Shown: one piece after another, positions 9,227 to 36,937 of the stretch | Layout of the letters: the number at the start of each line of letters is the position of its first letter | Numbering within the stretch: the first letter of the stretch is position 1 | From: a virus | Virus record (IMG/VR): IMGVR_UViG_3300030117_003126 | Coordinates: 1,209 to 48,176 of that record | Direction: 5' to 3' (one strand) | Length of the DNA: 46,968 bases | Program-made: the position numbers and the translations under genes | Notes under the pieces: model-generated | Told to the model about the DNA's origin: nothing | Database searches by the model: none | Seen by the model: only the letters and a program-made list of their open reading frames with translations

Positions 9227-11887
9227 ATGACTGATTTTTTAAAAGGTAACACACCAGCCACAATATACAAACGATTATTAAGTGTAGGGGGTGCTGCCGA
9301 CCACGCAGGACTAACTTCATCTTTAAAAGCTATTTTTACAGACGATGGAGCAGGGAGTAGTAATGCTTCTTCATTTAAATTGTCTACAACAGCTTTAAGA
9401 ATGGAATCATCGAATCAGTTAAGGTTTCGTGACGATGCAATATATATATATAGTTCTGGTGACACCATATTAAATCTTGTTGCAGATGGTGAAATTGATT
9501 TAGCGACAGCAACAATCGATATTAATGCTACTACTACTTGTACTATAGATAATACGAATACCAGTAATGGTGTTGCGATTAATACAGCAACAAGTGGAAG
9601 TCCTGTATCAATTGGTCACTCTACATCAGAGACAACCGTAAATGATAATTTAACGGTAACTGGTACAACGGCACATACTGGTGTAGTAACGATGGCGAGT
9701 GGTGTTAAATTACAGTTTGTTGATGGAAATGAATATTTATCTGGTGATAGTACAAATTTAACTCTTGGTTCTTCTGCCGATATTAATTTAACTGCAACAT
9801 CTGATGTTAATGTTCCTGCTAATGTAGGTCTTACTTTTGGTGACGATGGTGAGAAGATTGAAGGTGATGGAACAAATTTAGCAGTTGTAAGTAGTGGTGC
9901 ATTAAACCTTACTGGTGCGGCTGCATCAACATGGAAAACAACAGCAGGAACTATATTAATTGATTCTGAGGCGGCTGCGGTAACTGTAGATGGTCATGGT
10001 GGTGTAAATATTGCTGGAACAAATGGTTCAGAAGTAGACATTACAACGACAGGTGCAGTAGACATTAATTCTGGTTCATTCACATTAGATGGAGCAGACT
10101 TATCTATAGATGGTACGGATGATTCAAATGTGACCGTTACTGGTTCAGGAAAAGATTTAACATTATCTGTAGCTGGTGGTGGTACACAGCAATTAATTAT
10201 GTCTTCTGCTGGGACAGCTTCAAATGCAGTTGTTATTGAATCAACAGCTGGTGGAATAGACATATTAGCTTCTGGAGCTGCTGGTGGTGAAGATATTGAT
10301 ATTGTAGCAACTGGTTCATCTGTAAATATTTCATCATCTGAAGATGTTGCGAATGCGATTGTATTGAATGCGAGTGCTGGTGGTATTGATATTACTGCTG
10401 GAAGTGCTGAAGATATAGATATAACTGGTGGTGGTGGTGTAAATATTACATCTACAGAAAATGCAGCTGGTTCTATTACCCTTCATGCTAATGGTGGTAC
10501 AAGTGAAACAATCAAAATTCACGCTGACCAAAGTACATCTGCTAATTCAATTAGAATATTATCTGATTTGGGTGGTATAAGCCTTCAGTGTGGTAAGACT
10601 GGTGCAATTACAAACATGGCTTCTGATAGTTCTTCGGATGTTGCGGCTGCTTCTGTAAGGTTAGCGACAGAAACTGCTGATGTTGACATTGTTATTGGTC
10701 ATACAACTTCAGATGTTTTAATTCAAGATAATTTAAAAGTTGGTGGAGACCTTCATGTCGTTGGTTCACAGGCTTATGGTGCATTAACTATCTCACACGC
10801 TTCTGATACAGTTCTAACTCTGGATAATCAAGAACAAAGTGATGCGGATGGTGCAAGACATAATACAATAAAATTTACTGGTGAAAAAGGGAGTGGTGTT
10901 AGTGTCGATGATATGGCACAGATTGTTGTTGCACACGATGGTTCTTCTGCTGATGAAAAAGGATATATTGATTTTAGAACAAATGAGGGTTCTCAGGGTA
11001 CTTCACCATCTTCTGCCTTAAAACTTTCTGCTGACAATACAGCAACATTTTCTGGTGCATTAACAGTTGGTTCTAATACGATTACTTGTGGTAGGGTAGA
11101 TGCAGATAATATAAGACTTGATGCTACTACAATTTATACAACGAGTTCTAATGCTGACCTTGGAATATCTCCAAATGGTACTGGTGGAATAATGGCATTA
11201 AATACAAATGCCCCTGGTGATTATTCAATTGGTCTTGGTAATGGGGCTAATGCAAGTGGAAGTTATGCTTTTGCAGTTGGTAGAAGTGCTGTTGCAAGTG
11301 GAACTGATAGTGTATCTATTGGTGATTCAAACACGGCTTCGGCTGCGAATGCGATAGCAATTGGGGATGGTTGTACTTCAAACGCTGCCAATGCAATAGC
11401 GATTGGGAAAGGAAATACTGCATCAAATACTAACTCTGTGGCTTTAGGGATAAATAATGCATCAGATAGGAAAGCTGAAATTTCATTTGCCGCAGGTAGT
11501 AATGTTTCTGCTGGAGATACAAGGGCTTCATTTTTCCACGACTTTGACCGTCATGCAATTTCGAGTTCTTGGCAAAATATTGACGCTAAACAAGGTGGAA
11601 TTACACTTCCATCAGATGGTGTTGCTTGTGGCACAACTTGGATTGTTGGTAGTTCTACTGGGGCGGCATTAACTATAGGTTTTAAAATTGATTGGTTAGC
11701 AGAAAACGATGGTGGAACATACGCTATAGTTCAACAAACTTTAACATCGTTAGATAGTGAAGATACTTCTATAAATGCCCAAATGGCGATTAGTAGTGAT
11801 AAAATTGTCGCTCAAGTTACTGATGCGGCTATAACAACAACTATGGCATGGTCGGTTAGCACTCATTTAGTTCAACATAACTACTAA
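9227..11887 (+). CDS. Second large beta-repeat fibre protein
   Basis: An 886-residue Gly/Ser/Thr-rich fibre. Residues 110-470 contain short beta repeats around VDIN, ITAG and TGSG units. The segment near residues 670-760 holds YadA-head style repeats such as SVSIGDSN, AIAIGDGC, AIAIGKGN and SVALG. The last 90 residues form a distinct end domain (TWIVGSSTGAALTIGFKIDW) without the S74 signature, so this fibre does not self-cleave. The start has an AGGGG site. It lies between connector and large tail genes and is probably a tail fibre or tail-side adhesin. Confidence 0.85.
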   Translation: MTDFLKGNTPATIYKRLLSVGGAADHAGLTSSLKAIFTDDGAGSSNASSFKLSTTALRMESSNQLRFRDDAIYIYSSGDTILNLVADGEIDLATATIDINATTTCTIDNTNTSNGVAINTATSGSPVSIGHSTSETTVNDNLTVTGTTAHTGVVTMASGVKLQFVDGNEYLSGDSTNLTLGSSADINLTATSDVNVPANVGLTFGDDGEKIEGDGTNLAVVSSGALNLTGAAASTWKTTAGTILIDSEAAAVTVDGHGGVNIAGTNGSEVDITTTGAVDINSGSFTLDGADLSIDGTDDSNVTVTGSGKDLTLSVAGGGTQQLIMSSAGTASNAVVIESTAGGIDILASGAAGGEDIDIVATGSSVNISSSEDVANAIVLNASAGGIDITAGSAEDIDITGGGGVNITSTENAAGSITLHANGGTSETIKIHADQSTSANSIRILSDLGGISLQCGKTGAITNMASDSSSDVAAASVRLATETADVDIVIGHTTSDVLIQDNLKVGGDLHVVGSQAYGALTISHASDTVLTLDNQEQSDADGARHNTIKFTGEKGSGVSVDDMAQIVVAHDGSSADEKGYIDFRTNEGSQGTSPSSALKLSADNTATFSGALTVGSNTITCGRVDADNIRLDATTIYTTSSNADLGISPNGTGGIMALNTNAPGDYSIGLGNGANASGSYAFAVGRSAVASGTDSVSIGDSNTASAANAIAIGDGCTSNAANAIAIGKGNTASNTNSVALGINNASDRKAEISFAAGSNVSAGDTRASFFHDFDRHAISSSWQNIDAKQGGITLPSDGVACGTTWIVGSSTGAALTIGFKIDWLAENDGGTYAIVQQTLTSLDSEDTSINAQMAISSDKIVAQVTDAAITTTMAWSVSTHLVQHNY

Positions 11888-28861: not shown

Positions 28862-28987
28862 TGTGAGGTGTGTGAAGTGTGTGAAGTGTGGGACACGGAG
28901 TCACAACCGTACCCATCGTACTCAGAGTACGGTGAGTACGATAAGTTCTGTGAGTTCGGTGAGTTCGGTGAGTTCGGTGAGTTTTGG
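28862..28987 (+). repeat. Iteron-like 9-bp repeat array with 15-bp palindrome
   Basis: Three units of the type TGTGAAGTG occupy 28862-28888. After a gap, seven contiguous 9-bp units run from 28925 to 28987: GAGTACGGT, GAGTACGAT, AAGTTCTGT, three exact GAGTTCGGT and GAGTTTTGG. The array starts within a perfect palindrome, CGTACTC-A-GAGTACG (28917-28931). It lies next to the 3' end of a DNA-binding-type gene. Such arrays commonly bind an initiator, partition or terminase protein. Confidence 0.85.
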
Positions 28988-29590: not shown

Positions 29591-30178
29591 TTATCCTCCT
29601 ATGCCATATCTTTCGTATGCAGTATCTAAATCGTGTTGAACAACACCAATATATCGCAAAGTATGGTCTGGGTCATTGTGATTAAGTAACCTCATTACTA
29701 ATGCAAGGTCTTTTGTTTTGTTATAAACATTATATGCAAGTGTTTTTCTCATAGAATGAGTCCCAAATTTAGCGATTCCAGCCCTTTTTGCCGCATCTTT
29801 CAATATTGTCCAGGCACGCACCCTATCAAGGGGATTCATTGGGTCTCTTAAAGAAAAGAATATCCAATCATCTAGTCCAAGTCCGTAATATCTCACATAA
29901 GAAATTAATTCGGGTCTTATCACACTATTAAGTTTTATTTGTTTTAACTTTCTATTCCTTCTTTTAATAGTCTTACTTTCAAATAGGTCTAAATACTCGT
30001 TTAAATTACCACTAGAATCAAAAAGATGTTTAACCTTAAGTCTTAGTATGTCATTAATACGAAGTCCCGTATTAAGTCCAAATTTTAACAATAGGGCATC
30101 CCTCTTGTTTCCCTTCATCTCTAAAAACTCTAACATTCTTTTTAGTTTATTGCGGTCTTTTACTGGTTGAACGCTCAT
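29591..30178 (-). CDS. Minimal tyrosine recombinase
   Basis: A 195-residue protein that is almost only the catalytic domain of the phage integrase family: Arg40 in NTGLRINDIL, a Lys in the beta-hairpin (SKTIKRRN), His141-x-x-Arg144 (GTHSMRKT), His167 (LLNHND) and the nucleophile Tyr176 (TLRYIGV). The usual N-terminal arm and core-binding domains are missing. It may therefore resolve multimers or act at simple sites rather than integrate like lambda Int. It is linked to the SEC-C gene by TAATG with AGGAG upstream. No CI-like repressor is visible in the window. Confidence 0.85.
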   Translation of the reverse strand: MSVQPVKDRNKLKRMLEFLEMKGNKRDALLLKFGLNTGLRINDILRLKVKHLFDSSGNLNEYLDLFESKTIKRRNRKLKQIKLNSVIRPELISYVRYYGLGLDDWIFFSLRDPMNPLDRVRAWTILKDAAKRAGIAKFGTHSMRKTLAYNVYNKTKDLALVMRLLNHNDPDHTLRYIGVVQHDLDTAYERYGIGG

Positions 30179-30378
30179 TATACTCTCCTTTTATTAATAC
30201 AACATTTTTTATATTTCTTTTTACTACCACAAGGACAAGGTTGATTCCTACCAACTTTTACAATAGGATTCTCCTTTAACCATTGATAATATTTTCCCCA
30301 TCCACCAATAGAACGAATAAATTCCCCCAAAGAATTATAATTTTGGGGGAATCTTTTTGTTTGTGATTGTTTTATCAT
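30178..30378 (-). CDS. SEC-C motif zinc-binding miniprotein
   Basis: A 66-residue protein whose C-terminus is a textbook SEC-C motif: [16 protein letters not shown], the zinc-binding end also found in SecA. In SecA this motif binds zinc and SecB; stand-alone copies are common in phages and bacteria with unknown partners. The N-terminal half is helical ([17 protein letters not shown]). It lies between the cyclotransferase-like gene and the recombinase and is coupled to the latter by a one-base overlap. Confidence 0.85.
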
Positions 30379-30382
30379 TTGA

Positions 30383-30988
30383 TTACACTACTTTTTCAGT
30401 AAGTTCTTCCACAAGTCCATCAATAATCAAGTCCGTAAGAAAAATCTCTTCGACATCTGTGTTAATCGGCAAGTGCAATCTCTTCTCTACCATTTTCATA
30501 TATGATTCGTTTGTTGGGGTTCTATCTCCATCAAAAAACCTCATATCAAAAACAATCTTCTGTGCAATGTTCTCATATTCTTTATCGTGAATCTTTACTC
30601 TCATTAATTTCGAGTATTTCTTAGTCGTCTGCCAATATCCATAAGGTATCTCTACACTTTCTGAATCAAAATGAGATAGTTTACTAACATAAATATATGT
30701 TGGTTCTTTTATTGTTGGGAAATCGTCTTGAATATCTAAACGAGAATACAACCCACTATCAACACTTTCTAATCGGTCTAATACTTTTAAGACCTTATCA
30801 TCTACCTCGTATAATTCTCCATAGATAATGTCTGTCTCCCCACCTTTAACAATAAAGGGAAATCCGTACCCACTATCATACATCTTGAATCCAACCACCT
30901 TTAAAGGTTGGATATACTTTTGTCCTCTTAGGTACGAAGAGAAACGACCACCTTTTTTTAATGTACCATATACTATTATTTTTGTCAT
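30383..30988 (-). CDS. Gamma-glutamylcyclotransferase-like (AIG2/GGCT) protein
   Basis: A 201-residue protein with the GGCT/AIG2 fold signature: [11 protein letters not shown] (residues 4-14, the glycine-rich loop), YGELYEV (56-62) and [15 protein letters not shown], where Glu74 is the likely catalytic acid. Members release 5-oxoproline from gamma-glutamyl amines. The C-terminal 75 residues are extra and unassigned. The ATG at 30988 is preferred over an upstream in-frame ATG (31045) because AGGAGAG lies 7-8 bases before it. The gene ends the accessory block that begins with the amidoligase, and such enzymes are known neighbours of amidoligases. Confidence 0.82.
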
Positions 30989-30992
30989 TTTA

Positions 30993-31160
30993 TTACTCTC
31001 CTTCCGAATGTATTTCGGGATTATTTTTAATAGAATCGCGGACATAATTCATCCAAAACTTTGGAATGTACTGAACCTCTAATCTTCCAAGTTCTAACCT
31101 ACGAATCATATCTCCTAAATCTTCGTGTAACCATTTTAAATGTTTTATGATTATTGTCAT
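30993..31160 (-). CDS. Hypothetical 55-aa protein
   Basis: A short helical protein (MTIIIKHLKWLHEDLGDMIR) starting at ATG 31160, behind a GAGGAG site formed by the end of the upstream gene; a start at 31178 is possible but lacks a site. Its own end (the codons for EGE and stop) supplies the GGAGAG site for the cyclotransferase-like gene. No family is recognised. The interlocked signals show it is part of the operon. Confidence 0.62.
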   Translation of the reverse strand: MTIIIKHLKWLHEDLGDMIRRLELGRLEVQYIPKFWMNYVRDSIKNNPEIHSEGE

Positions 31161-31161
31161 T

Positions 31162-31602
31162 TTAAAACTCCTCTTCATTATACTCTAATCGACTTTCCAT
31201 TTGGAAATGTTCACAACTATCAATACTACTTGCCAATTCCTTACTCCAATTATTCCATTTATCATAATAATCATCAATATCATCCCACTCATCTACATTT
31301 CTGTAAAAACCCCACTTATAATCAACTACCTCAATACACTCATCTTTACCTATGAAATGAGATTCGTCATACCAAATTGCCTCTGAATCTAAATGATATA
31401 TATACCCATCATCAGTTTGAATTATAAAATGATAACATCCACCACCAGAATAGGAACTAATTGCATCTTTAATCTCGCGACCTTTATTAATAATTATTGT
31501 CCCCATTTCAATTATCATTTGATTCCATTGTTCTTTCCATAATCCAGACGTATGAATATTTTGGTATTTGTCTCCTATGAGTTCATTTGGTTTTATTGTC
31601 AT
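31162..31602 (-). CDS. Hypothetical acidic protein (146 aa)
   Basis: A 146-residue acidic protein rich in Asp, Glu, Tyr and Trp (for example YRNVDEWDDIDDYYDKWNNW). It has a beta-rich middle (GGGCYHFIIQTDDGYIYHLD) and no membrane segment. I do not recognise a family; the low pI and aromatic clusters are seen in DNA-mimic and inhibitor proteins, but this is only a resemblance. It carries the shared AAAAGTGGAGAATAACAATG leader of the block. Confidence 0.7.
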   Translation of the reverse strand: MTIKPNELIGDKYQNIHTSGLWKEQWNQMIIEMGTIIINKGREIKDAISSYSGGGCYHFIIQTDDGYIYHLDSEAIWYDESHFIGKDECIEVVDYKWGFYRNVDEWDDIDDYYDKWNNWSKELASSIDSCEHFQMESRLEYNEEEF

Positions 31603-31604
31603 TG

Positions 31605-31835
31605 TTATTCTCCACTTTTATTTTCATTTTCACATTCTTTACAACAGAAATGTTTATCTTCATCTCCATCTTGGTTTACTATCCAATCTTCAGAATGTAG
31701 ATTACTGACCACAGAATCTTTATGGTCATAATATCCTCGTTTACCCGAATAATCTTGGTAAACAAAATCCATTTCTATTTCAATTGTGTCTCCACAATTA
31801 TCACACTCTATTATTAATGTTGGGTCGTATTGCAT
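31605..31835 (-). CDS. Small zinc-ribbon protein
   Basis: A 76-residue acidic protein with CDNC (residues 11-14) and CCKEC (about 64-68), spaced as a zinc ribbon around a beta-rich core (TIEIEMDFVYQDY). No enzymatic motif is present. Its last codons, KSGE and stop, are themselves the ribosome-binding leader of the next gene. The same leader precedes its own ATG. It could bind RNA, DNA or a partner of the neighbouring enzymes; there is no direct evidence. Confidence 0.68.
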   Translation of the reverse strand: MQYDPTLIIECDNCGDTIEIEMDFVYQDYSGKRGYYDHKDSVVSNLHSEDWIVNQDGDEDKHFCCKECENENKSGE

Positions 31836-31847
31836 TGTTATTCTCCA

Positions 31848-32426
31848 CTATTTTGTGCAATAGGTTCTAAAAAGACCCATTGCCTTGTTGTTTGTTATAT
31901 CATTTAAGATGGTGCATCCATCATACCTATCTTTTATAATGTCGCGAAAGGTTACACCACTTACTCCATTGTGACGATATTTCTTGTCTAAAAAATGTGG
32001 TTTATTGTTTTTCACAAAACTAAAAACCTTATTCTTATGTAAGACTTGAATCTTCTTCATTGCCTTTTTAAAGTCTTTTACAATAAGATACTCATCAACC
32101 AACACATTCCACATCTCTTCTTCATCGAATTTAGATTTTGTAGGTTTATCTTTCCCATCCCATTCCCAAGTATATTTGGGTAGTGTAGATAAAAACTTAT
32201 CCACATCAGTATTTTTACTCATCCATTTATTTCCAATATAGTATTCTATATCAAGACATCCACCATTTCCACTATCAATAATGTGACCAATCTTTTTATT
32301 TTTAAAATACATATTGGCATTTATTCCAACACCTTCCCTACCCATAAAGGTCTTAACTGATTTTACTGAAAAGTCAGATTCAATAATCTTTTTCTTTCCA
32401 ATCTTATGTTCTTTTGAATATTTCAT
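31848..32426 (-). CDS. Hypothetical protein (192 aa)
   Basis: A 192-residue basic protein, first gene after a predicted promoter, with the block leader (AAAAAGTGGAGAATAAC) before its ATG. The N-terminal half is beta-rich (GVGINANMYFKNKKIGHIID, then CLDIEYYIG), and the C-terminal half is helical and Lys-rich. I recognise no family or catalytic motif. It lies in the middle of the amidoligase block and may belong to that pathway, either as a substrate carrier or an unrelated accessory protein. Confidence 0.7.
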   Translation of the reverse strand: MKYSKEHKIGKKKIIESDFSVKSVKTFMGREGVGINANMYFKNKKIGHIIDSGNGGCLDIEYYIGNKWMSKNTDVDKFLSTLPKYTWEWDGKDKPTKSKFDEEEMWNVLVDEYLIVKDFKKAMKKIQVLHKNKVFSFVKNNKPHFLDKKYRHNGVSGVTFRDIIKDRYDGCTILNDITNNKAMGLFRTYCTK

Positions 32427-32454
32427 TTGTTATTCTCCACTTTTTGGTTGACAT

Positions 32455-32483
32455 AGATTACGATAGTAATTTAAACAATGCAA
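32455..32483 (-). promoter_or_regulatory. Predicted promoter inside the accessory block
   Basis: On the minus strand TTGCAT (32483-32478), then 17 bases, then TAATCT (32460-32455) match a sigma70-type promoter. Transcription would start about 20 bases before the ATG at 32426. Just downstream lies a sequence (32447-32462) nearly repeated at 35668-35683. Confidence 0.45.
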
Positions 32484-32526
32484 CCTTTTTATTAAAAAAT
32501 GTTATTTTATTTTTATTCAAAAATTA

Positions 32527-32586
32527 GGCGACCTGCCCTGGAAGATTCGCTGAATAGTTCCGCGAGATTCTCCCAGGTTGCCGCCC
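32527..32586. other. GC-rich structured element
   Basis: A 60-base GC-rich island in AT-rich DNA. On the + strand GGCGACCTG (32527-32535) pairs with CAGGTTGCC (32574-32582) with one wobble. On the minus strand an inner stem forms from CCTGGGAGA and TCTTCCAGG plus TCGC/GCGA, closed by GGCG/CGCC and followed by TAATTTTTGAAT. In the leftward direction it would act as a terminator or structured RNA between two transcription units. It is not a tRNA: it is too short and has no T-arm consensus. Confidence 0.5.
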
Positions 32587-32598
32587 ATTTTATTCTTC

Positions 32599-32712
32599 TT
32601 AACTGAATAAGAATCTTACGATTAATGTAAATCCGAATAGGTATACTGCATACCAATGCAAGACTCTTACGAAATAAAATGGTATTCTTACTTTTGTTTT
32701 TTTCATTTTCAT
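32599..32712 (-). CDS. Mini membrane protein (37 aa)
   Basis: A 37-residue basic and hydrophobic frame (MKMKKTKVRIPFYFVRVLHW, then YAVYLFGFTLIVRFLF) with one membrane segment. AAGGA precedes the ATG at 32712; a second ATG two codons later is equally possible. It follows another mini membrane gene by 5 bases. No family is recognised. The existence call rests on the ribosome site, membrane pattern and tight spacing. Confidence 0.5.
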   Translation of the reverse strand: MKMKKTKVRIPFYFVRVLHWYAVYLFGFTLIVRFLFS

Positions 32713-32717
32713 TTTCC

Positions 32718-32828
32718 TTAAATGATTGAGATTAAAATCCATAGACACACAACTATCATAAATACATAACAGATAGTTTGTATCTCATCATCGTAATGAC
32801 CTAATCCCCATTTATTTAGTTTATCCAT
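32718..32828 (-). CDS. Mini membrane protein (36 aa)
   Basis: A 36-residue frame starting MDKLNKWGLGHYDDEIQ with a C-terminal membrane segment (ICYVFMIVVCLWILISII). It has a GGGAGAATAAAA leader like the other genes of this block. It lies 20 bases after the zinc-ribbon gene and 5 bases before another mini membrane gene. Function unknown. Confidence 0.55.
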   Translation of the reverse strand: MDKLNKWGLGHYDDEIQTICYVFMIVVCLWILISII

Positions 32829-32848
32829 TTTTATTCTCCCTTTATTTA

Positions 32849-33115
32849 TTAGTAACAAAAATTGCACAAGATTTTTTCACTATAACTGAATCTTCTTTCA
32901 TCTGTCGATGAACACCCACATTTATCACAAACAATTTTCTCTTCATATCCATTTTCATCCAAACTTTCTAAAACACTTAGATTATCATCTTGTTTTTTTA
33001 TTAAATCAATAAGGTTATGTGTTAATCTTTTTTTAACTGAACCACCTTGACTTGGAACAAGTCTTAAACCTTCTAACAATATTTGTTTTTTTGTATGTTT
33101 TTTATATTTCTTCAT
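32849..33115 (-). CDS. Small zinc-ribbon protein after the GATase gene
   Basis: An 88-residue basic protein. The N-terminal half is helical (HTKKQILLEGLRLVPSQGG), and the end has CDKCGC and CNFC, a compact zinc ribbon. The GTGGAG leader of its ATG can be trapped in a hairpin with the 3' arm of the upstream terminator-like stem (33125-33140). It follows the amidoligase and glutamine amidotransferase genes on the same strand and might carry or recognise their substrate; that is inference. Confidence 0.65.
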   Translation of the reverse strand: MKKYKKHTKKQILLEGLRLVPSQGGSVKKRLTHNLIDLIKKQDDNLSVLESLDENGYEEKIVCDKCGCSSTDERRFSYSEKILCNFCY

Positions 33116-33124
33116 TTTTATTCT

Positions 33125-33166
33125 CCACTTTTGAAAGTGGCGACCTTTTTAAAAAAGGTCACCACT
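33125..33166 (-). promoter_or_regulatory. Mutually exclusive hairpins (possible attenuator)
   Basis: In the minus-strand transcript AGTGGTGACC with a T-run pairs with an A-run plus GGTCGCCACT (33166-33136), giving a long stem with one mismatch. The 3' end of this stem, CCACTTT (33140-33134), can instead pair with AAAGTGG (33131-33125), which overlaps the ribosome site of the 88-residue gene. The two folds exclude each other, so they could couple termination or folding to translation of the downstream gene. Confidence 0.5.
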
Positions 33167-33177
33167 CTCGGTTATTG

Positions 33178-34143
33178 TTATTTTACTTTTTTGATTGTTG
33201 AACCATCACTTGCAACTACATCCTTACGATTGAAATCCAACCTCTGTTGAGGAACATCTCTCTCAAGAATGTCATCAAGTCTATCACGATAACTATATCG
33301 AGGTATGAATCTCGTATGAGTTTTCTTCTTAGGTTTACAAGTCTTCGGTTTTACTCTCACACTTGCACCAATCTTAGAATCAAATCTAAAGTAACTATTT
33401 GTACCCTCTTTGATTCGTGCATCGGTCTTCATCATCTTTAAAGTATCGGTATTCACTCTGACCAAGGTATTAGGATTGATGTTTATCCATCGTAATTCCT
33501 CTGAGAATCCACTTTCTACGATTTCCTTGGTACTACCATAGGCAAGAGATTTTAACGATGGCACATAGGCAATTTCCAATGGATTATTCCCTTTGAATAG
33601 ATATACATATTCTGGAAATTCCAAATCTTGCCAAACCATCGAAACTCTACCTTTGACCAATTTCAGTTTATCGATGAAATCCTTAAAATTTTCAGAGTAT
33701 TCGTAGAGTCTGAATAATACCTCAGAGTCTACCTCTGCAAATCTCTCAAGACCGAATTTCTCGAATAGTTCGTCATCATTCCATACCGAACCATTATGAG
33801 TACCGATAGTATTGTTTGCCCTTATTGGATGATTATTCTCATTATTCTTTGGTGACCCTTGGGTAGAATATCGAGTATGTCCAATGATTGCACTTGTCTC
33901 GTTATGGTCGATAAAATCCAATGCATTTAATACAGATTTCTGTAAGAAGAAATTGTATGCATTTTTATCTCGTTTGCATAAGAGGTAATCTCCATCTCTC
34001 TGAATGATTGCAAAACCAGTTGAATGTCCACCACGAGTATTTGCAGTTTTCGTCATTTTGATAAATGAATCTCTTATCTTACGACCCTCGAACATAGTCC
34101 GAGAATCGTCTCTTTTATTGATTATTCCTACTAATCCACACAT
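33178..34143 (-). CDS. Class II (Ntn) glutamine amidotransferase
   Basis: A 321-residue enzyme that should release ammonia from glutamine. It has all key class II marks: nucleophile Cys2 (MCGLVGI), GHTRYSTQG (residues 88-96), NNHPI (103-107), GTHNG (114-118) and DSEVL (139-143). The normally acidic position in RGxDSxG is His here (RGGHSTG, 37-43). There is no synthase domain as in GlmS, PurF or AsnB; instead a basic tail of about 90 residues (KPKTCKPKKKTHTRF). Its ATG overlaps the amidoligase stop by one base (TAATG), so the two are made together and probably channel ammonia. Confidence 0.9.
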   Translation of the reverse strand: MCGLVGIINKRDDSRTMFEGRKIRDSFIKMTKTANTRGGHSTGFAIIQRDGDYLLCKRDKNAYNFFLQKSVLNALDFIDHNETSAIIGHTRYSTQGSPKNNENNHPIRANNTIGTHNGSVWNDDELFEKFGLERFAEVDSEVLFRLYEYSENFKDFIDKLKLVKGRVSMVWQDLEFPEYVYLFKGNNPLEIAYVPSLKSLAYGSTKEIVESGFSEELRWININPNTLVRVNTDTLKMMKTDARIKEGTNSYFRFDSKIGASVRVKPKTCKPKKKTHTRFIPRYSYRDRLDDILERDVPQQRLDFNRKDVVASDGSTIKKVK

Positions 34144-35144
34144 TATTGACCCCTATTATTATTGTTTTGAAATGTACCATCTTTGACATATCGATAATCG
34201 GAATGTCTCTCATATCTTTCCTCATTCCGATTCAATTCTCTATATCTTCTTTGGATGAATAGATTTGCATCTTTGGTTAGTTGGTCGTTTGTATATGGTG
34301 TACCATCTTGATTACCACTACGACCAACAAAACCAATTGCCCCTCTGAAACTTGCCAAACCTCTTGAACCATTAGGAACATAACATAATTTGACAAAATT
34401 CGTTTCATTTACAGAATTGATAATTGCATTTGTCACGACTATCCAAGACTTGATTTTATCGAAATTCAATGTACCATTATGATACCTAAATTCGACAGAA
34501 CCTCTATCCCATATTTTATACAGATTTAATCCACAAGTACGACCCCTTTGTAATTCTCTCATTCCATTAGAGGTACTTTTTAACCTAACTCCATCTTTTA
34601 TCTTATTTTCCATATAGTTTTTAACGATACTTGGATTACTTGTATGACCTTGAAAATACATACTACGACAAGGAACAGAATATCGTCTATTATCTAGTCT
34701 AGATGGGGCAACTAATTTGTATATGATATGTTCATATTTTGCCACAAATCCGACAAGGTTTTTAATGAATCGTTTTGCATTTGCATCGGATTCATTTACG
34801 ATATTGGTCACGTCTTGATGAATATGTAATCCACAACTTTTATTGACTTGGCAATCCATCATATTTAATACTTGGCAAACTTTTTCAAGTTCATCAAGTC
34901 CACTTTGTCCACTTAATCGAGGGGAAACAAGTTCATTCCCACCATGATGGGTACGATTACCATTTACTGACACATCTCCAACTATTTTCCAATGGTTTCT
35001 AGTCGTATGATTGTAACCCTCTACTCTTGTTCTTACTCCTAATGAGGATAATGCATTTGCCACATCTTGTTGAGTCTTGTCATTTGGAATTAAAAACTCT
35101 ATCTCTATTCCAAAGTCTCTCTGACTATTAAAATGTCCTTTCAT
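34143..35144 (-). CDS. Amidoligase (glutamine synthetase-like carboxylate-amine ligase)
   Basis: A 333-residue enzyme of the amidoligase_2 type (PF12224-like). Motifs in order: FGIEIEF (11-17), HWKIVGDVSV (51-60), GGNELVSPRLSG (68-79), CGLHIHQD (104-111) and SVEFRYHNGTLN (216-227). These acidic, His and Arg residues form the ATP-metal site of the COOH-NH2 ligase fold. The family uses ATP to join a carboxylate to an amine, often making gamma-glutamyl or isopeptide bonds. It is first in the block, behind a GTGGAG leader and an operator-like promoter, and is fused by overlap to a glutamine amidotransferase. The substrate is unknown. Confidence 0.9.
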   Translation of the reverse strand: MKGHFNSQRDFGIEIEFLIPNDKTQQDVANALSSLGVRTRVEGYNHTTRNHWKIVGDVSVNGNRTHHGGNELVSPRLSGQSGLDELEKVCQVLNMMDCQVNKSCGLHIHQDVTNIVNESDANAKRFIKNLVGFVAKYEHIIYKLVAPSRLDNRRYSVPCRSMYFQGHTSNPSIVKNYMENKIKDGVRLKSTSNGMRELQRGRTCGLNLYKIWDRGSVEFRYHNGTLNFDKIKSWIVVTNAIINSVNETNFVKLCYVPNGSRGLASFRGAIGFVGRSGNQDGTPYTNDQLTKDANLFIQRRYRELNRNEERYERHSDYRYVKDGTFQNNNNRGQ

Positions 35145-35173
35145 TTTATTTCTCCACTTTTTATTATTGATTT

Positions 35174-35223
35174 GTACCCCTTGTGAGTACCCCTTAGTTT
35201 ACAAAGGTTTACATAATATACAA
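35174..35223 (-). promoter_or_regulatory. Promoter with tandem operator-like repeats for the amidoligase block
   Basis: On the minus strand TTGTAT (35223-35218), 16 bases and TAAACT (35201-35196) form a plausible promoter. Two copies of GTTTACA (+ strand 35197-35203 and 35207-35213, 10 bases apart) lie over the spacer and -10. Two copies of GTACCCCTT (35174-35182 and 35187-35195, 13 bases apart) lie just downstream. Repeats spaced by about one helix turn suggest a repressor or activator site. Confidence 0.5.
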
Positions 35224-35517
35224 GGACTTTTTTATAATAAATACGTTATGATAGGTAATTATTTAAAAAAATGTCGCCTAACTCTCGATAAATGGGTAAT
35301 TATTACTATTAATTGTTATAGGATTTATAGAGAATAATGACATTATTATAAAACATCGCATAACGAGGGATTAAATGATTTGTGTTTATAGAGTTATGCC
35401 GACTTATATATATAGACCAAGGGAGGGGGGGTATTTTTTTGCACATCAATTTACGTTTCCCTTCGAGAAATAAGATAACCTATTCCCTATTATGTTATGC
35501 AAATACCCTCTATAATA

Positions 35518-35543
35518 CATCGTTTTACCCTCTGAAAACGATG
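35518..35543. repeat. Perfect 9-bp inverted repeat
   Basis: CATCGTTTT (35518-35526) and AAAACGATG (35535-35543) are exact reverse complements around an 8-base loop (ACCCTCTG). No T-run follows on either strand, so a protein-binding site or RNA hairpin is more likely than a terminator. Confidence 0.7.
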
Positions 35544-35590
35544 CCAATATATAAAGGTTCGCGGATGCCTGGGATTTAATCTGAGTCGCT

Positions 35591-35619
35591 GACCACCCTC
35601 GCTAAGGGGTGGGTGGGTC
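35591..35619. repeat. GC-rich hairpin
   Basis: CCACCC (35593-35598) pairs with GGGTGG (35607-35612) around TCGCTAAG, with further G-tracts (GGGTGGGTC) that allow slipped pairing. It is the most GC-rich stretch of the gap and could be a terminator-like or origin structure. Confidence 0.45.
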
Positions 35620-35668
35620 ACCCTCGTATTTGTACCACATTGTTATATTTTAGGTATTTATAAATCAG

Positions 35669-35695
35669 TTGACATAAGTTACGCATTAGTATTAG
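35669..35695 (+). promoter_or_regulatory. Possible promoter for the rightward genes
   Basis: A consensus TTGACA (35669-35674) lies upstream of the first rightward gene. The best -10 is TATTAG (35690-35695) with a short 15-base spacer, so strength is uncertain. The surrounding 16 bases (35668-35683) are nearly repeated at 32447-32462. Confidence 0.4.
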
Positions 35696-35703
35696 ACTTC
35701 GTT

Positions 35704-35829
35704 ATGTTAAAAATTACTTTAGTATTGTTTTCCCTCTTAATAATTACGATTGTTTCTTATAGTTTAAAGCTAATAATCGAAGATGAGAGGAGAATAAGAG
35801 AGTTAAAAATAAAGGCAAAAGAGAGATGA
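35704..35829 (+). CDS. Mini membrane protein (41 aa) before the methyltransferase
   Basis: A 41-residue frame with an N-terminal membrane segment (ITLVLFSLLIITIVSYSL) and a charged helical tail (IEDERRIRELKIKAKER). It ends one base before the methyltransferase ATG, which it may help to translate. No clear ribosome site precedes it, and it would have a nearly leaderless message if the TTGACA element is its promoter. Function unknown. Confidence 0.5.
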   Translation: MLKITLVLFSLLIITIVSYSLKLIIEDERRIRELKIKAKER

Positions 35830-35830
35830 T

Positions 35831-36937
35831 ATGCAAATGTTGGACTTATTTAGTGGAATCGGTGGATTCCATAGAGGGTTTGAAGAAGCTGGATGGGAAT
35901 TTGATTGGATTGGTTTTAGTGAAATTGATAAACACGCCAGTTCAGTTTATAGATATAGATACCCAAAGGCGGTAGAACTTGGAGACATTACAACTATTCA
36001 ACCAGAAAGAGATTTACCAGATAAACTTACAGTCCTTTGTGGAGGGTTTCCGTGCCAAAGCTTTTCCATTGCAGGGGCTAGGGGTTCATTTTCCGACACA
36101 AGAGGAACTTTATTTTTTGAAATCGCACGGATTTTATCCTATTACAAGGACAAAGGAGACCCAGTCCCCTATTTTCTACTCGAAAATGTTAAAGGCTTAT
36201 ATAGCGCAGGAGATTACACAGCATTTGCTACAATCTATGGAATTCTTACCGAGCTTGATTATAATGTTGAATGCTCATTGGAAAATACTAAGTATTACCT
36301 CCCACAGAACAGAGAGCGAGTATACATTGCGGGATATATTGGAGACAGAAGTAGAGGACAAATATTTCCTCTCGGAGAAGGCAGTAAAGAGATTGACAAA
36401 CGAGAAGAATCCAGAGGGTTACAGAAGCAATATAGTTCCACTATCTTCGCAGGACAACATAAAATATCCAGAGGAATGACATTGATAGCAGACTACAGAA
36501 CAGATGAGGGATTAAGGATAAGAAAGGATAACGTAAGTCCTTGTTTAAATAGTGTTAAGGCAAGTGAGACAGAACCTTCTTGGATGCCACCATTAGCTAT
36601 AGAAGAAACAAGAATAAGAAGATTAACTCCAAATGAATGTGAAAGACTTCAGGGTTTTAGTGCCAGGAATAAGGATGGAATATGGGAAGATGGTTGGACA
36701 AGTAAGGGTATGGTAGATGATAAAGTTGTAAATATAAGTGACACCCAGAGGTATCGAATGTGTGGTAATGCAGTAACGGTAAATGTGGTAAAAGCTATTG
36801 CAGCAAAGATGTTAAGTACGGTAGAAATAGATTGTGACCATGAGAATTTGGAACAAGGTGAAGATAGGTATGGTAGAGAAGAACATCAATATACTACTTA
36901 TTGGTTTTGTCTTGATTGTGGAGAGGAGATAGAATAG
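35831..36937 (+). CDS. Cytosine-C5 DNA methyltransferase
   Basis: A 368-residue enzyme that transfers a methyl group from S-adenosylmethionine to cytosine C5. Motif I is DLFSGIGGFHRGFEEAGW (residues 5-22), motif IV GGFPCQSFSIAG with catalytic Cys75, motif VI LLENVKGL, motif VIII QNRERVYIAGY, and motifs IX-X RRLTPNECERLQGF and GNAVTVNVVKAIA. The target-recognition region (about 195-275) is short. The end holds WFCLDCGEE, half of a zinc ribbon. It probably protects phage DNA from host restriction. A nuclease-type gene follows without a gap. The target sequence cannot be read from the protein. Confidence 0.93.
   Translation: MQMLDLFSGIGGFHRGFEEAGWEFDWIGFSEIDKHASSVYRYRYPKAVELGDITTIQPERDLPDKLTVLCGGFPCQSFSIAGARGSFSDTRGTLFFEIARILSYYKDKGDPVPYFLLENVKGLYSAGDYTAFATIYGILTELDYNVECSLENTKYYLPQNRERVYIAGYIGDRSRGQIFPLGEGSKEIDKREESRGLQKQYSSTIFAGQHKISRGMTLIADYRTDEGLRIRKDNVSPCLNSVKASETEPSWMPPLAIEETRIRRLTPNECERLQGFSARNKDGIWEDGWTSKGMVDDKVVNISDTQRYRMCGNAVTVNVVKAIAAKMLSTVEIDCDHENLEQGEDRYGREEHQYTTYWFCLDCGEEIE

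Follow-up and report, generated by a model that had tools for sequence, protein, structure and literature searches.

We report that a marine phage encodes a compact cassette of three enzymes, one of which is fused to a domain that in other loci stands alone beside another of them. The window analysed, of 46,968 nucleotides, corresponds to positions 1209-48176 of a 48,176-base IMG/VR virus record (IMGVR_UViG_3300030117_003126). The block in question starts at 35144 and runs leftward, with an amidoligase (PF12224), a class II glutamine amidotransferase (GAT), a run of small open reading frames (ORFs) and a gamma-glutamyl cyclotransferase-like protein (GGCT). A conserved C-terminal domain of the GGCT is homologous to a stand-alone protein of about 80 residues that adjoins amidoligases, which we label small partner protein (SPP). 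The trio itself is ordinary for such phage genes, and the same kind of cassette has already been published; new relative to the literature searched are the SPP adjoining the amidoligase and its fusion to GGCT. In our preferred reading, to which we assign a probability of about one half, the ligase would form an amide or gamma-glutamyl bond, the GAT would feed it with ammonia, the GGCT would trim, and the SPP domain would dock, with the envelope as target.

The amidoligase (34143-35144, minus strand, 333 residues) matches Pfam Amidoligase_2 with an E-value of 6.4e-30 and 105 bits, against a gathering cut-off of 22, and keeps all residues of the GxExE, HxH and ExR motifs of this family. In an alignment of 28 homologues, E14, E16, E71, H107, E218, R220 and H222 never vary, while H109 is present in at least 90% of the sequences; these residues probably correspond to the metal and substrate ligands of glutamine synthetase (GS). 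An AF2 model of the enzyme (pLDDT 89, pTM 0.90) retrieved from the PDB, by Foldseek, almost only members of the GS/glutamate-cysteine ligase (GCL) superfamily, namely, GS, YbdK, GmaS, PafA and plant GCL, and the top 49 matches all belong to the GS/GCS superfamily. TM-scores normalised by query length are 0.28-0.46, so that kinship to these enzymes is remote.

The amidoligase gene overlaps by a single base, within TAATG at 34143, the gene for the GAT (33178-34143, minus strand, 321 residues), a stand-alone Ntn-type enzyme that matches GATase_6 (PF13522, E 1.6e-13). Residues C2, R91, N117, G118 and D139 are invariant among 24 GAT homologues and align with the glutaminase site of GlmS, that is, the Cys after Met, the Arg, the Asn-Gly and the Asp. 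In the window's clade, the Ntn domain of the GATs is followed by a conserved C-terminal tail, PRFSY...DGSTIRKVK (window 33181-33300), a possible docking motif.

The GGCT (30383-30988, minus strand) is a two-domain protein of 201 residues whose start we corrected from 31045 to the ATG at 30988, because a strong Shine-Dalgarno sequence (AAGGAGAG) lies there and relatives begin at the equivalent place. Its N-terminal domain matches GGACT (PF06094, E 3.1e-17), and in an alignment of 16 sequences the YGTL motif and E74 are invariant, the latter aligning with the catalytic E82 of human GGACT. The AF2 model (pLDDT 87) matches 1v30, 1xhs, 3jud and 3juc in the PDB. Both human GGACT and Escherichia coli YtfP resemble this domain in fold and sequence; however, YtfP has no Glu at the aligned catalytic position, and the window's protein differs from both in its additional C-terminal domain. 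The initial annotation, made from the sequence alone, had described an amidoligase with its complete motif set overlapping a class II glutaminase by one base, and a GGCT/AIG2-like protein in the same block. The residues conserved among homologues and the Pfam searches it had suggested sustain this description for all three enzymes, each of which keeps its catalytic residues, whose loss would have counted against the annotation; the GGCT start needed correcting.

The additional domain, overlooked in the initial annotation, spans approximately residues 122-201 of the GGCT (30386-30625, minus strand) and is carried by the GGCTs of the window's family. It has no match in the PDB, and the SPP family to which it belongs was not found in Pfam, PHROGs or NCBIfam; neither SPP nor its fusion to GGCT was met in the literature searched, which did not include Iyer 2009 and Hardies 2013. 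A profile built from the GGCT C-terminal domains alone matched 27 stand-alone ORFs in other loci (E <= 0.01), and iteration raised this number to 85, one per locus. In all 85 loci SPP is encoded next to the amidoligase, nearly always just downstream, or overlaps the end of its frame on that side: the distance is within 300 bp in 66 and 300-1500 bp in five, and in the remaining 14 the stop-to-stop reading frame extends back into the amidoligase gene. Aligned with HHalign, the stand-alone SPP and the GGCT C-terminal domain gave a probability of 96.7% and an E-value of 3.2e-10. Among viral proteins, the structural matches of the GGCT model include a full-length protein of 202 residues (TM 0.86) as well as proteins of 80-86 residues (TM by target 0.74 and 0.65), which likely correspond to the C-terminal domain.

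The association was also examined in reverse, on 195 whole genomes of a single bacterial order, that of Runella, which was picked since a Runella locus held SPP, the genomes within the order being drawn irrespective of it. As the SPP alignment is too divergent for sequence patterns, these genomes were searched with the profile, which gave ten matches in nine genomes, every one of them 114-208 bp downstream of the end of a PF12224 match and on the same strand. Seen from the side of the enzyme, ten of the 11 short-type amidoligases in these genomes have an SPP beside them, whereas none of the five long-type ones (PF12224 match of about 830 bp) does. Bacteroidota prophages (Runella, Bacteroides, Pontibacter) share the short amidoligase type of the window and have a stand-alone SPP, but, unlike in the window, GAT and GGCT are usually not nearby.

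When loci were collected through the amidoligase and those with 1.5 kb or more of downstream sequence were compared, 70 had SPP only, 11 GAT only, two both and 19 neither, so that stand-alone SPP and GAT are rarely found together (Fisher p 1.6e-5, uncorrected for relatedness). This rule is broken by the window's clade, with GAT present and SPP fused to GGCT, and in a FastTree phylogeny, whose root was not inferred and in which several other rows have long branches, the fused proteins form one clade of 18 with a local support of 99. By this fusion, and not by position alone, the GGCT is tied to the ligase. If the cassette has an accessory component, the GGCT C-terminal domain is a stronger candidate for it than the small genes of the block.

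The enzymes are also strongly linked with each other. GAT-seeded viral loci contain an amidoligase in 78 of 79 cases, at most 200 bp away in 75. The two genes share a strand in 80 of 81 non-identical amidoligase-GAT pairs, drawn from 26 GAT clusters (50% identity), and are no more than 200 bp apart in 76. The distance matrices of the two proteins are correlated (r 0.63; highest value after shuffling 0.11), which shows co-inheritance, although genome linkage by itself could also bring this about. Amidoligase and GAT occur in every one of the 22 relatives of the window's module, and GGCT in 20, the available stretch ending inside the GAT in the other two; in most relatives the trio is contiguous, with no genes in between. 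The association of amidoligases with GAT-II and AIG2-like genes that the initial annotation had pointed out, which would have been undermined had the three enzymes never occurred together, is therefore a real feature of these phages.

The same enzymes, in various combinations, have been described in LUZ24-like phages (PMC3890496), Arthrobacter phages (PMC5513430), Clostridium prophages (PMC11318856) and phage ZRK32 (PMC10945688), and an amidoligase with GAT in OM43 phages (PMC10580990). They have been published as a predicted peptidoglycan-modification cassette for HP1 and RIO-1 (PMC5498523) and for a LUZ24-like phage (PMC11945000), and the genes so predicted in HP1 are expressed immediately upon infection (PMC7082346). 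RIO-1 and HP1 are the only matches of the window's GGCT by tblastn in the phage collection. The RIO-1-type cassette (RIO-1 and HP1; also phiEco32, LUZ24, PaP3 and CW02) resembles the window in having Amidoligase_2, GAT-II and GGCT in one block, but the gene order in RIO-1 and HP1 is another one, their GGCTs, of 136 residues, are too short to hold the C-terminal domain, and they have an additional COOH-NH2 ligase and an ATP-grasp enzyme. A second COOH-NH2 ligase (PF14395) was not found above the cut-off in the window's record or in the 22 IMG/VR relatives, possibly fragments, with a positive Alcaligenes control; a weak PF14395 match (15 bits, below cut-off) inside a virion protein of 1797 residues was treated as chance. 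Likewise, the RIO-1 ATP-grasp query found nothing in 16 records of the window's family, again possibly fragments, while detecting the enzyme in RIO-1, HP1 and an Alcaligenes phage. To judge from these sequences, the window's family appears to have a reduced cassette, as far as fragmentary records allow.

Other related systems differ in other ways. The Arthrobacter phages of cluster AL and similar ones (Ottawa, Salgado) have, like the window, an amidoligase followed by a GAT with GGCT nearby, yet at about 30% identity, and the GGCT of Ottawa lies upstream of the amidoligase. The OM43 phages MEP401/402 and their relatives share the amidoligase with GAT, and the portion of that account available to us mentions no GGCT. 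ZRK32 has all three enzymes plus a glutathione synthase-like gene, and in the portions available the enzymes of both ZRK32 and the OM43 phages are annotated only as auxiliary metabolic genes.

How such a cassette may work can be pictured as follows. As a GS-fold enzyme, the amidoligase would use ATP to activate a carboxylate as an acyl phosphate and then couple an amine to it. The GAT would hydrolyse glutamine, plausibly giving the ammonia for this step, or else release gamma-glutamyl groups, and the GGCT would take off gamma-glutamyl groups as 5-oxoproline. The most likely role of the GGCT C-terminal domain would be that of a docking or substrate-recognition element, which brings the GGCT and the substrate together with the ligase. 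As target, a peptide of the host envelope, altered early in infection, would be the most likely.

Several points weigh against this proposal. That peptidoglycan is the target is a prediction that later papers reportedly took over from Iyer 2009 and Hardies 2013, and we found no biochemistry for any of the cassette enzymes in the literature searched. Within the limits of fragmentary records, neither of the other two ligases known from the published cassette turned up in the window's family. Position and fusion are the grounds on which the SPP domain is suggested to have its role. Moreover, many phages and prophages have an amidoligase and SPP without GAT or GGCT, and therefore the amidoligase family does not in general depend on a GAT for ammonia.

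We regard it as unlikely, if worth serious attention, that the enzymes modify a protein or a ribosomal peptide, of the host or the phage, rather than the wall, with the SPP domain serving as acceptor or carrier, or else recognising the peptide, in the manner of Pup with PafA, or of LysW. In favour of this, structural matches of the amidoligase include PafA, which is of the GS fold, and the ligase has a dedicated small protein next to it in 85 of 85 loci and in ten of ten cases in the reverse test. However, the SPP C-terminus is unconserved and lacks the Glu/Gln end of a Pup- or LysW-like tag, we saw no precursor peptide, and no other small genes are conserved along with the trio. The tight SPP pairing and the GGCT fusion, pointing toward a dedicated pathway, speak against the proposal made for ZRK32 that these are auxiliary metabolic genes feeding glutamate and nitrogen metabolism, which for the window seems quite improbable to us: although the ZRK32 phage has the same enzymes, and adding it raised growth with nitrate or ammonium, the account, as far as available, reports neither an enzyme assay nor a gene removal (PMC10945688).

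The GAT may, on the other hand, not be an ammonia donor at all but an amidase or peptidase reversing the ligase, so that the two would make up a pair for making and removing a bond. The enzyme has no fused synthase domain, and GAT and GGCT have been listed as degradation genes (PMC5498523), but its glutamine-binding Arg, Asn-Gly and Asp are invariant and aligned with those of GlmS, so that glutamine is favoured as substrate; we consider such a pair very improbable. Hypermodification of phage DNA, brought to mind by the divergent C5-methyltransferase gene adjoining the block (35831-36937), has almost nothing to recommend it, since genes for modified-base synthesis were not seen nearby and a homologue of the methyltransferase lies near the module in only four of the 22 relatives.

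The small genes that separate GAT and GGCT in the window are all on the minus strand, and this part of the block is mostly private to the phage. From the GAT onward, these are a CxxC protein of 88 residues (p88, 32849-33115), two overlapping ORFs for hydrophobic miniproteins of 49 residues (32599-32867), a protein of 192 residues belonging to phrog_17767 (p192, 31848-32426), a zinc-ribbon-like CxxC protein of 76 residues (p76, 31605-31835), a protein of 146 residues without family match (p146, 31162-31602) and a gene of 55 residues (30993-31160, Shine-Dalgarno GAGGAG), which had been hidden under the over-extended GGCT start. No tblastn match to p88, p76, p146 or the two membrane miniproteins was obtained in any of the 22 relatives, p146 having only a weak pairwise match, to a 155-residue ORF of the relative L002. 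Only in this relative are p192 and the 55-residue gene kept, the latter with 75% identity (L002:11013-11177). Because the trio is contiguous in most relatives, we interpret the small genes of the window as a local insertion.

The initial annotation had given the ORF positions correctly, but its suggestion that the unidentified genes of the block might be substrates or regulators is not supported, since almost every relative with the trio lacks them, and its question whether the 192-, 146-, 88- and 76-residue genes travel with the enzymes is answered in the negative, p192 doing so in L002 only. As to the three zinc-ribbon or SEC-C miniproteins it had placed in the block, the small ORFs exist, but the SEC-C protein (30178-30378) falls just outside 30383-35144. 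The same absence led us to reject the idea that the small genes of zinc-ribbon, SEC-C and membrane type are conserved components of the cassette. The p192 protein was rejected as a partner too, and is best seen as accessory and outside the core, as it is also encoded in Pamexvirus-like phages, in a stretch where no amidoligase is seen; these phages carry genes for thymidylate synthase and dCMP deaminase.

Elsewhere, the window has podovirus-like features, namely, internal virion proteins, portal, terminase, RecE/RecT, RusA and a tyrosine integrase. None of six proteins of the region matched a PADLOC model of a known anti-phage defence system, and the sites given by a promoter scan did not outnumber those in shuffled sequence. 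A divergent intergenic region of about 690 bp (35144-35831), with inverted repeats at 35230-35249/35334-35353, separates the amidoligase block from the C5-methyltransferase. The methyltransferase itself differs in length among close relatives (368 residues in the window, in a 460-column alignment to L005:3122-4492), as if it had a variable insertion. On the other side, the match of the 195-residue tyrosine recombinase (29591-30178) to the PHROG integrase profile begins only at profile position 51, an N-terminal domain not being obvious, and short 9-bp tandem repeats (TGTGAAGTG; GAGTTCGGT x6.6), possibly iterons or a recombination site, are located at 28862-28983, between RecE and a gene of 199 residues. 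Lastly, a protein of 886 residues in the virion region (9227-11887) has YadA head repeats, an adhesin-type motif.

Phage blocks with amidoligase, GAT and GGCT have been noted for more than a decade and called wall-modifying or metabolic, with no test found in the literature searched. The natural fusion of SPP and GGCT provides evidence beyond gene order for ligase and cyclotransferase belonging to one pathway, and SPP offers the amidoligase family a concrete missing component. It is tempting, if rather doubtful, to go further and propose that short Amidoligase_2 enzymes of phages and prophages have a dedicated, so far unrecognised partner of about 80 residues, be it a carrier, an acceptor or a recognition subunit, for a small-protein-dependent ligation instead of acting as lone ligases, and that in the window's marine clade this partner has been fused to a deconjugating GGCT. 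If true, the SPP-GGCT fusion would put bond-making and bond-cleaving enzymes on one handle. The three genes of the marine form may make up the smallest set in nature for testing substrate and chemistry.

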